A stretch of DNA of 64,000 nt from Chloroflexota bacterium (GCA_030447245.1 JAUJPG010000001.1:396029-460028), one strand, 5' to 3'; counted from the stretch's first letter, positions 54,340 to 57,553 are shown. Made by a program: numbers and translations. Notes: generated by a model not told the origin, from the letters alone.

Positions 54340-54828
54340 ATGTCAGAGCCGTTCGAGTACGTCTCTTATGCCCGCCTCGAGTATCACGGAGGCCGCCGCC
54401 AGGCCTACCTGGGCGAGGTGGCAGAGCCGGTGACCTACGGGGTGCAGGGCGCTCTTCGCGAGTACTACGGGGCCAGGGAGGGCCCGCCGGTCGCCTCGAC
54501 CCTGGACCACATGGTCGCCGCCATCGCCGGTTGAATGTACGGCACGCTTGCCGGTGCCCTGTCAGGGCGCAAGATCCCGTTTGACCGCGATCGGTTCGCA
54601 GCCACCGTCGATGGCCGGATCGTTGGCATCGGCAGGACGATCAAGATCGAGTCGGTCGCCGTACACTACGATCTCGCGGTGCCCCCCGAGCACCGCGAAG
54701 CCGCCGAACGCGCCCTTCGGATCCACCCGGAGGGCTGCCCGGCCCACCAGAGCGTCAAGGACGCCATCGCCATCACGTGGGATGCCACGTTACGCCTCGG
54801 CGATCAGGTGGTGCAGGTGAGCGAATAG
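54340..54828 (+). CDS. Candidate selenoprotein: OsmC-like protein with in-frame UGA (Sec) at codon 65
   Basis: 54340..54534 and 54535..54828 are one frame: ...DHMVAAIAG(UGA)MYGTLAGALSGRKIP...HPEGCPAHQSVKDAIAITW. UGA sits at the first OsmC Cys position. Hairpin GCCCU-GUC-AGGGC lies 54556..54568. Confidence 0.75.
54556..54568 (+). promoter_or_regulatory. Candidate bacterial SECIS element for the OsmC-like gene
   Basis: GCCCTGTCAGGGC: 5-bp stem, loop GTC starting 27 nt after the UGA with G first; outer CTTGC/GCAAG helix (54547..54551 / 54569..54573). Confidence 0.6.
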
Positions 54829-54841
54829 GAGGGGAGCGGCC

Positions 54842-55516
54842 ATGCCGCGTGTGTGTGTCTTCGACGTCAACGAGACGCTGCTCGACCTGGCCGCCCTGGA
54901 CCCGCATTTCGAGCGGGCCTTCGGCGACTCCAGCGTGCGCCGGACCTGGTTCGCCCAGATGCTCCAACTCGCCCTCGTCTCCACCGTCACCGGTGCCTAC
55001 GCCGATTTCGGGGCGTGCCAGGCGGCGGCGCTCGAGATGGTTGCCGCGCGCCAGGGCGTGGACGTCTCGGAGGGCGACCGGCGCGAGATCCTCGATGGGA
55101 TGCGCCGGCTGCCGCCGCATCCGGAGGTTCGCGAGAGCCTGGAACGGCTTCGCGAGGCCGGCTTCCGCCTGGCCACGCTGACCAATTCGACGCTCGAAGT
55201 GGCCGAGGCGCAGCTCAACCACGCGGGCATCCGCGACCTCTTCGAGCAGGCCCTTTCCGCCGACACCGTCCGCCGCCTGAAGCCGGCGGCCGAGCCGTAC
55301 CGGATGGCAGCCGAGCGGCTGGGCGTTGAGATCGCCCAGGTGCGGCTGATCGCCGCCCACGCCTGGGACATCGCGGGGGCCCTCCGGGCCGGCTGCGCCG
55401 CCGCCTTTGTGGCTCGGCCGGGGATGATCCTCGACCCGCTCGTCGACCGTCCGGATGTCGTCGGCGCCGACCTGCGGCAAGTCACCGACCGGATCGTCCA
55501 GGTCGAGGCAGCGTAG
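54842..55516 (+). CDS. HAD superfamily haloacid dehalogenase type II
   Basis: VCVFDVNETLLDLAALDPHFERAFGD..LATLTNSTLEVAEAQL..RRLKPAAEPYRMAAERLGV..LIAAHAWDIAGALRAG. Confidence 0.92.
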   Translation: MPRVCVFDVNETLLDLAALDPHFERAFGDSSVRRTWFAQMLQLALVSTVTGAYADFGACQAAALEMVAARQGVDVSEGDRREILDGMRRLPPHPEVRESLERLREAGFRLATLTNSTLEVAEAQLNHAGIRDLFEQALSADTVRRLKPAAEPYRMAAERLGVEIAQVRLIAAHAWDIAGALRAGCAAAFVARPGMILDPLVDRPDVVGADLRQVTDRIVQVEAA

Positions 55517-55577
55517 GAAGCTGAGAAGCGCGGAATCCGCGGCAGATGCACACGGAGTCGGCTCAGGAGGTGACAGC

Positions 55578-56816
55578 ATGCCCCATTTGAAGCACCTTCC
55601 CGACATGAAGCGCAACGAGATGCTGACGTTTCCGGCCCAGGTGAACCACGACACCCCCTGGACGCCACCGGCGCGGCCGCTGCGCGAGGCTCGACTGGCG
55701 CTGGTGACCTCGGCCGGCCTCCACCGCCGCGGCGATCCGCCCTTCGTCAGCAACCATCACGAGCCCGATTACTCCTACCGCCGTCTACCGGCCGACACGC
55801 CGGCCGCCGAGATCCTGCAGAGCCACGCCAGCGCTGGCTTCGACCGCTCCGGCATTCAACGCGACCTCAACACCACCTACCCGGTCGACCGTCTGCGCGA
55901 GCTGCTGATGCGGGGGGCCATTGGGAGCCTGGCCGACAGCTTCTACTCGTTCATGGGCGCGCTGCGGAACGTCGCTCGACTCGAGCAGGAGACCGCGCCC
56001 GCGGTGGCCGAGCTCCTCCGTCAGGACGGCGTCGAGGTCGTCCTGCTCACGCCGACCTGACCGCTCTGCTCGCACACCTGTGGTGTGCTCGCCCGCGTGT
56101 TCGAGGCGTCCGGCCTGTCCAGCGTCCAGATCAGCCTGCTGCGAGAGCATACCGAGAAGATCAGGCCGCCGCGGGCGCTCTTCTGCCCGTTCCCGTTCGG
56201 CCTGGCGCTCGGCAAACCGAACGATCCCGAGTTCCAGCACCGCGTCCTGGACCATGCATTCTCACTGCTCGAGCGCCCGAGCGGCCCGGTCCTCGAAGAC
56301 TTTCCGGAGGAGATCGTCCCCGCGGATGCGCCGGTCACGCCCGCCGAGGAGCGGCCGCCCGATCCTGCGTTTGAGCTGACGGCGCTGCGCGGCTACTACG
56401 ACCGCTTCGTCGCGCACCACGGGCGGACCGCGGTCGGGCTGACCGGCGTGCCGAGCACCCGCTTCCGCGGCCTGGTCCGCCTGCTCGAGAGGTACGCCGC
56501 GGGCGAGGAGATCGAGGCGCCGACACCCGACCTGTCCGCGGCCCAGTACGCCCGGTTCGCCTGCGACGACATCAAGGCCTTCTTCCGCGAGGCGCGCATG
56601 GAGCAGTACCCAGCCGAAAATGGCCCCCAGATCGACGCCTGGTTCTGGCAGCAGACCGCGATGGGCCCCATGATGCGCCGCGTTCGCGACCGCATGCTGG
56701 CGTCTGGCGACCGGCAGGTCGAGATGCTCTCGTATGGGATTTACCGCGAGCCGGACACGCCGAATCCAGAGTGGAAGTACCTGACGCCGACGGCGGTCAA
56801 GACGGACGGCGGGTGA
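55578..56816 (+). CDS. Candidate selenoprotein: glycine/sarcosine/betaine/D-proline reductase selenoprotein B (GrdB/PrdB)-like, Sec at codon 161
   Basis: Same frame either side of TGA 56058..56060: DGVEVVLLTPT(UGA)PLCSHTCGVLARVFEASGL. UxxC motif; RBS ggagg; downstream hairpin GCACACC-TGT-GGTGTGC. Confidence 0.82.
56072..56088 (+). promoter_or_regulatory. Candidate bacterial SECIS element for the GrdB/PrdB-like gene
   Basis: GCACACCTGTGGTGTGC: perfect 7-bp stem, loop TGT starting 19 nt after the UGA with G in second loop position. Confidence 0.7.
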
Positions 56817-56866
56817 CGCCGGAGGGACAAACTCGTAGTCCGCCACGGCCAGGACCGGGGGTTGGG

Positions 56867-57553
56867 TCAGCCCACGTCACCGGCCTCCAGGAGGTGGGCC
56901 AGCTCGGTTAGCGACTCGACGACGACGTCTGGCGGCGAGCCCAGCCAGTCGAACAGGCCGCCGCCGCGATTGACCCAGGCGGCCTTCATCCCGACCGCTT
57001 CCGCGCCGATGACGTCGAAGGGATTCGAGGAGACCAGGCGGATGTCGCCGAGCGGCCGTCCCAGCCGCTCGGCCACCCGACGGTAGGTGCGCGGAGACGG
57101 CTTGAATGCCCGCACCTCGTCGACGCTGACGTAGCCTTCGAAGTAGGGCGCGAGCGCCGCCTTGCGCATGATCGCGTCCAGCATCCGGGGGCTTCCGTTC
57201 GAGAAGACGAGCATCCGCTGGCCGCGGTCGCGGAGTCGCCGCAGGCCGGGCAGCACGTCTGGAAACGTCTCCAGGTCGTCGTACTGGGCCATCAGGGCGG
57301 CCTTCTTGTCGTCAGAGAGATCGGACCCGGCGGTGGCCAGTGCGTGGTCGAGCGCCTTCCGCGTGACCCGCTCGAAGTCCTCGTACCGCTCCATCACGGT
57401 CAAGCGGAACGAGTACTCGAGCTGTTTCTGGCGCCAGACCTCGGCGATTCGCGGGGCGGCCTTTCCCGTGTCCTGCTCGAGCGCCTTCCAGATGCGGATC
57501 GGGTCAACCAGTGTGCCATACATGTCGAACACCAGCGCCTCAGCAACTGCCAT
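56867..57553 (-). CDS. Haloacid dehalogenase type II (HAD superfamily)
   Basis: ALVFDMYGTLVDPIRIWKALEQ..LVFSNGSPRMLDAIMRKAAL..FKPSPRTYRRVAERLG..RLVSSNPFDVIGAEAVGMKAAWVNR. Confidence 0.93.
   Translation of the reverse strand: MAVAEALVFDMYGTLVDPIRIWKALEQDTGKAAPRIAEVWRQKQLEYSFRLTVMERYEDFERVTRKALDHALATAGSDLSDDKKAALMAQYDDLETFPDVLPGLRRLRDRGQRMLVFSNGSPRMLDAIMRKAALAPYFEGYVSVDEVRAFKPSPRTYRRVAERLGRPLGDIRLVSSNPFDVIGAEAVGMKAAWVNRGGGLFDWLGSPPDVVVESLTELAHLLEAGDVG

Follow-up and report, generated by a model that had tools for sequence, protein, structure and literature searches.

A GrdB/PrdB-like selenoprotein gene between predicted haloacid dehalogenase genes in a Chloroflexota genome: relatives, gene neighbourhoods and possible function

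The locus and its selenocysteine codons

In a 64,000-nucleotide stretch of a Chloroflexota genome (GCA_030447245.1, JAUJPG010000001.1:396029-460028; hereafter the window), a compact cluster of four genes occupies positions 54340-57553. A gene for an OsmC-like protein, a gene for a type II haloacid dehalogenase (HAD-II; HAD1) and a gene for a protein resembling GrdB and PrdB (hereafter GRDB-like) lie on the + strand, and a second HAD-II gene (HAD2) is convergent on the - strand (Table 1). The intergenic gaps among the + strand genes are 13 and 61 nt, and an AGGAGG-like ribosome-binding site precedes every start. The host belongs to the phylum Chloroflexota (green non-sulfur bacteria); its genome comprises 5.2 Mb in 131 contigs, is 90% complete, and carries the window on contig C73.

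The OsmC-like and GRDB-like genes each contain an in-frame UGA. Both are selenocysteine (Sec) codons and both genes encode selenoproteins, a conclusion that leaves very little room for doubt. Profile and tRNA searches identified SelA (547 bits) directly upstream of SelB (351 bits), together with tRNA-Sec (69.6 bits), all on the same contig as the window. Across loci of other genomes from many phyla, the codon aligned with the UGA of the GRDB-like gene is TGA in 127, TAG in seven, a cysteine codon (TGC/TGT) in four and a gap in two; the count includes overlapping loci and does not represent 140 independent genes. For the OsmC-like gene, all eight relatives have TGA at the same site. Downstream of the GRDB-like UGA, a hairpin covaries at the paired positions 17-27 (C-G/U-A/G-C) and 18-26 (G-C/A-U/U-A), and the observed level of pairing was reached in none of 500 codon-column shuffles. 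Folding energies of single hairpin sequences did not separate clearly from those of codon-shuffled controls, whereas pair counting did. A similar hairpin at the same offset is present in most of the eight OsmC-like relatives.

These results agree with the initial annotation, which was made from the sequence alone, in several respects. All four genes lie in the order and at the positions that it had given. Its proposal of two Sec-type UGA sites, beyond what chance would produce, is upheld by SelA, SelB and tRNA-Sec and by codon conservation in relatives, and its assignment of a hairpin resembling a selenocysteine insertion sequence (SECIS) to each UGA also stands, with covariation for the GRDB-like gene and mostly conserved position for the OsmC-like gene.

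The seven TAG codons occur at the Sec position of GRDB-like genes in actinobacterial loci (L106, L159, L160, L161, L167, L171 and L172). They arose in an actinobacterial search, and two were checked in Modestobacter. Recoding of UAG as Sec by a tRNA-Sec(CUA) is documented in Geodermatophilaceae for FDH, UGSC and AhpC (PMC5330540), so TAG at this position in actinobacteria is to be expected. GRDB-like would be a further protein type with UAG-encoded Sec.

Table 1. Genes and selenocysteine-related features of the four-gene cluster (window positions)
Feature	Position	Strand	Properties
OsmC-like selenoprotein gene	54340-54828	+	162 aa; motif AG-U-MYGT (UxxT type); PF02566 34.3 bits
Sec codon UGA, OsmC-like gene	54532-54534	+	TGA in 8/8 relatives
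SECIS-like hairpin, OsmC-like gene	54554-54570 (about)	+	GUGCCCU-GUC-AGGGCGC; folds in window
HAD-II haloacid dehalogenase 1 (predicted), DehRhb (His/Glu dyad) type	54842-55516	+	TIGR01428 177.1 bits
GrdB/PrdB-like (GRDB-like) selenoprotein gene	55578-56816	+	412 aa; LLTPT-UPLC; PF07355 51.9 bits; TIGR04483 153.5 bits
Sec codon UGA, GRDB-like gene	56058-56060	+	aligned codon mostly TGA across loci
SECIS hairpin, GRDB-like gene	56072-56088 (about)	+	GCACACC-UGU-GGUGUGC; covarying helix
HAD-II haloacid dehalogenase 2 (predicted), classical L-DEX type, convergent	56867-57553	-	TIGR01428 194.5 bits

The predicted dehalogenases and the GRDB-like protein

Both HADs score above the TIGR01428 cut-off of 125.4 bits. 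The best PDB match of HAD1 is 2yml, an L-haloacid dehalogenase, and the motifs FDVNETLLDL and (A/C)H-W-D are retained; HAD2 was aligned to PDB 3um9/1jud, and its catalytic residues are likewise retained. Both proteins keep the catalytic residues of dehalogenases, not the phosphatase core alone, and are predicted L-2-haloacid dehalogenases of HAD type II. There are four HAD-II genes above the cut-off in the window genome, and the two with the highest scores are those flanking the GRDB-like gene.

The GRDB-like protein exceeds the gathering cut-off of PF07355, the GrdB domain family (22 bits), over a partial domain (211-347 of 347), and falls under the TIGR04483 (PrdB) cut-off of 300 bits. The Sec residue and a cysteine three residues on (UPxC) are invariant in 39 aligned GRDB-like proteins. 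Beyond the PrdB-like core there is a C-terminal helical extension. An AlphaFold model of the protein is confident (pLDDT 90.6), but no PDB relative of the model was found at E <= 0.001; since no solved fold resembles it, the mechanism is not readable from the structure.

Comparison with D-proline reductase PrdB, whose known chemistry is a dithiol-driven reduction, reveals a homologous core over residues 25-231 and a shared UxxC motif. The window protein differs in scoring below the family cut-off, in its C-terminal extension of about 150 residues and in the lack of a PrdA pyruvoyl subunit in the genome. Homology to GrdB, the selenoprotein B of glycine/sarcosine/betaine reductase, covers residues 23-160 of the domain, with Sec at the corresponding domain end; here the differences are that the window genome has neither GrdA nor a GrdE-type subunit and that the neighbours of its GRDB-like gene are dehalogenases. 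Searches of the window genome (G000), at its 90% completeness, gave no match to PF09338 (GrdE/PrdA, the pyruvoyl-type subunit) or to PF04723 (GrdA), and both families are also absent from Modestobacter, Pseudonocardia, Afipia and the haloacid-cluster genomes G304, G305 and G547. With the pyruvoyl subunit and GrdA absent, the GRDB-like protein is not part of a glycine or proline reductase complex. The unusual reductase context and missing GrdA suspected in the initial annotation therefore hold genome-wide.

Of the genomes sampled, 71 of 301 from Chloroflexota and 68 of 95 from the Rokubacteria class encode a member of the GRDB-like family, nearly always with Sec. A search of plasmids with the protein returned distant PrdB and GrdB-family genes only. 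No published function for the family was found in a literature search of partial coverage.

Gene neighbourhoods of the GRDB-like and OsmC-like relatives

Similarity searches supplied all GRDB-like loci, and those given names are the 80 best among at least 450, so that the frequency of a neighbour among them is no unbiased census. Modestobacter sp. DSM 44400 (L106) and another actinobacterium (L174) encode, on one strand and in this order, an ActP/MctC-like symporter, a HAD-II, DehI, a GRDB-like protein with Sec encoded by TAG, and GcvH. The HAD-II of these two operons is 72-73% identical to HAD2 of the window. A HAD-II gene also adjoins the second, divergent GRDB-like gene of Modestobacter. 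In Pseudonocardia nigra the order is DehI, GRDB-like, GcvH, Lpd. Afipia 1NLS2, a Hyphomicrobiales metagenome-assembled genome (MAG; L222) and a Xanthobacteraceae MAG share a CRP regulator, a GRDB-like gene with Sec, HAD-II, TrxB and a symporter of the same family, which is 63% identical between the Modestobacter and Afipia types; the cluster of the Hyphomicrobiales MAG also contains DehI, and in Afipia DehI is about 17 kb distant. No metal-resistance genes were recognized among the neighbours in these actinobacterial and Afipia-type clusters. In three Rokubacteria, a HAD-II of another subtype lies 0.06 to 5 kb downstream of the GRDB-like gene. Unbiased clustering of neighbours singled out HAD as a family that is shared with the window and lies within 100 bp of the GRDB-like gene.

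The combination of a carboxylate symporter, HAD-II and DehI in the actinobacterial and Afipia clusters is that of haloacid catabolic genes of the dhlB/dhlC and dehI type, to which these clusters add a selenoprotein reductase and dithiol carriers. No publication connecting a selenoprotein of the GrdB/PrdB type to genes for haloacid dehalogenases was found, although the partial coverage of the literature makes this weak evidence of novelty.

DehI had no match in 14 control genomes and zero to two per genome in the GRDB-like set, and in three actinobacteria it lies within about 2.5 kb of the GRDB-like gene. By arithmetic, a single DehI gene in a genome of 5.5-8.5 Mb would lie no more than 3 kb from a particular gene with a probability of about 0.001 per genome. 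On a tree of 93 rows, the dehalogenase label requires seven changes, against a mean of 11.5 after shuffling, and none of 500 shuffles was as low; near-copies add to this clustering, and the starred branches still force at least four changes. The window protein is placed together with proteins of Rokubacteria and Actinobacteria (SH-aLRT 84), in a clade of which seven of the 12 members are dehalogenase-linked. These patterns suggest that the link between the GRDB-like selenoprotein and hydrolytic haloacid dehalogenases is real and conserved in several lineages.

The OsmC-like protein belongs to PF02566 (gathering cut-off 27.5 bits) and shares the OsmC family and the UxxT motif with the OsmC-like selenoprotein reported from the Sargasso Sea (PMC1088965), from which it differs in scoring 22.4 bits, under the cut-off of 95, against NF041052 (OsmC-related (seleno)protein). 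Orthologues in Rokubacteria are 70-75% identical, with TGA in the same place. OsmC is absent from all of about 90 other GRDB-like neighbourhoods, and OsmC-like selenoprotein genes in the other genomes inspected, including the Rokubacteria orthologues, are never near GRDB-like or HAD genes. OsmC was accordingly rejected as a conserved partner in the module, and the protein may be an accompanying peroxide or thiol-repair enzyme with no fixed part in it. In Rokubacteria loci L142 and L150, a gene for an Lpd-like disulfide oxidoreductase shares the strand of the OsmC-like selenoprotein gene, at a distance of about 40 bp; such a neighbour would fit a lipoyl-type reductant for the OsmC-like selenoprotein.

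The initial annotation had joined all these genes in one redox and possibly dehalogenating module, and had suggested comparing their context in other genomes. That part of the proposal which links GRDB-like to haloacid dehalogenases is sustained by independent occurrences of the pair in actinobacteria, in Afipia-type alphaproteobacteria and in Rokubacteria. The inclusion of OsmC is not; of the co-occurrence of HAD-II, GRDB-like and OsmC that the annotation had asked about, a recurrent pairing of HAD with GRDB-like is seen. Relatives carry the genes apart, which the annotation had named as evidence against linkage, in the case of OsmC and of most of the GRDB-like family, but not in the clade of the window protein.

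GRDB-like genes also occur in other settings. In Methylomirabilota (L260, L263, L264 and L266), short GRDB-like selenoprotein genes lie in arsenosugar-type clusters with ArsS (391-440 bits), an associated peroxidase-like protein, a TIGR04283 glycosyltransferase (264-272 bits) and an Lpd/MerA-like flavoprotein; these short forms may possibly function in arsenic metabolism. In a Burkholderiales MAG (L116:4700-9254), a full-length GRDB-like gene with Sec lies shortly downstream of merP and merA. Short relatives without an in-frame stop are found in rhizobia-type Rhizobiales genomes (L185-L208), with no dehalogenase in the flanks examined; going by the missing stop alone, they are probably cysteine forms. 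In SAR202/Dehalococcoidia (L088, L090, L089, L093 and kin), the GRDB-like gene with Sec begins about 4 bp after a small RF-1 domain gene, the product of which resembles the peptidyl-tRNA hydrolases that act on stalled ribosomes.

Possible function and alternative explanations

Our reading, which is tentative and held with slightly less than even confidence, is that the GRDB-like protein would be a stand-alone selenol reductase, driven by dithiols, that acts on halogenated carboxylates one step ahead of the hydrolytic dehalogenases; both this substrate class and this reaction are what we infer from sequence and gene context. The selenolate would attack a halogenated carboxylic acid at a halogen or at its alpha-carbon, reductively removing one halogen, and the nearby cysteine of UPxC would resolve the selenium as a selenenylsulfide. 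Re-reduction would be by lipoyl-GcvH/Lpd or by thioredoxin/TrxB, and HAD-II or DehI would then hydrolyse the less halogenated acid, yielding a hydroxy- or oxo-acid. Reduction as the opening step would be useful because an assayed HAD enzyme, a characterized (S)-2-haloacid dehalogenase, converts dichloroacetate to glyoxylate and does not act on trichloroacetate (PMC8092247). A narrower version is conceivable but rather doubtful: in bacteria other than obligate organohalide respirers, the enzyme would be a Sec-dependent reductive dehalogenase that needs no cobalamin, takes polyhalogenated carboxylic acids (e.g. trichloroacetate) as substrates, draws its electrons from lipoyl-GcvH/Lpd or thioredoxin/TrxB and supplies HAD-II/DehI. 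Trichloroacetate as the substrate is a guess.

The closest precedent is FarB, a GrdB-family selenoprotein of the farACEB operon of Cloacibacillus (Synergistota), for which cleavage of the C-F bond of fluoroacetate has been proposed (Leong 2023, PMC10838667); fluoroacetate induces this operon about 5000-fold. Like GRDB-like in the haloacid clusters, FarB is encoded in an operon with a transporter, and its proposed activity is reductive carbon-halogen cleavage of a haloacetate. The comparison is one of family, operon and proposed chemistry. FarB has FarE as its partner, is believed to supply GrdA/GrdC and is found in strict anaerobes, whereas the window genome and the genomes with haloacid clusters lack a FarE/GrdE-type subunit and GrdA, and the neighbours across these loci are HAD-II/DehI and GcvH/Lpd/TrxB.

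Several observations weigh against reductive dehalogenation at this locus. Placement of the window protein in the dehalogenase-linked clade is tentative, as the support value is only 84 and its branch is long. No match to the symporter, GcvH or TrxB was found beside the window genes, and the sole DehI of the genome sits on another contig. No dehalogenase was found in the flanks examined of most GRDB-like relatives, among them nearly all those of Chloroflexota/SAR202, those of Reyranella and the short Rhizobiales forms. The arsenosugar-type clusters and the full-length gene near merP/merA indicate that the family is not specific to one substrate. Our confidence stays below even because the family is broader than haloacids, most of its Chloroflexota members lack a dehalogenase, and the window lacks symporter and dithiol carriers.

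These same settings lend themselves to another explanation, that GRDB-like proteins are broad selenol reductases or transferases for soft electrophiles (arsenic or mercury species, peroxides, alkylating compounds) and that the haloacid clusters are a single recruitment with a protective or thiol-recycling role and no halogen removal. The short Methylomirabilota selenoproteins, beside ArsS, the peroxidase-like protein, the glycosyltransferase and an FAD disulfide reductase, and the L116 gene near MerP and MerA would fit this, as would the adjoining OsmC-like selenoprotein in the window, which suits a stress role, and the recurrence of pyridine-nucleotide disulfide reductases as neighbours. It is a serious but unlikely alternative: the actinobacterial and Afipia-type neighbours form a set for haloacid uptake and hydrolysis with no recognizable metal-resistance genes, and HAD2 and its 72% identical counterpart stand beside GRDB-like in two phyla. 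Alternatively, the HADs and GRDB-like may be functionally unrelated, having come together when gene transfer built an accessory island. The exact four-gene arrangement is found in the window genome alone, the OsmC linkage is not conserved, HAD-II genes are fairly common (up to 18 matches per genome), and the Rokubacteria HADs, of different subtype, are 0.06-5 kb away. Such a coincidence is made improbable by the repeated association, across several lineages, with two dehalogenase families unrelated to each other, with one symporter family and with dithiol carriers, as well as by the clustering of the label on the tree and the rarity of DehI. That GRDB-like is a reduced form of a glycine-, sarcosine-, betaine- or D-proline-type amino-acid reductase would account for its sequence kinship with PF07355 and TIGR04483; given the missed PrdB cut-off and the absence of PF09338 and PF04723 from the window and haloacid-cluster genomes searched, this is very unlikely indeed.

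Little appears to be known about the enzyme that opens the aerobic breakdown of polyhaloacetates. If reductive dehalogenation by GRDB-like is correct, the family would gain a function and haloacid breakdown an uncharacterized reductive entry, and a selenium enzyme at the entry step for polyhaloacetates would tie selenium supply to the fate of natural organochlorines and of common by-products of disinfection that are chlorinated. Among the candidate hosts are named strains, such as Afipia sp. 1NLS2, Pseudonocardia nigra and Modestobacter.

Adjacent to the intact cluster, at 51563-54314 on the - strand, metX- and metY-like sequences (judged by eye) are broken across several frames, which suggests either that the assembly introduced frameshifts or that the genes have decayed.

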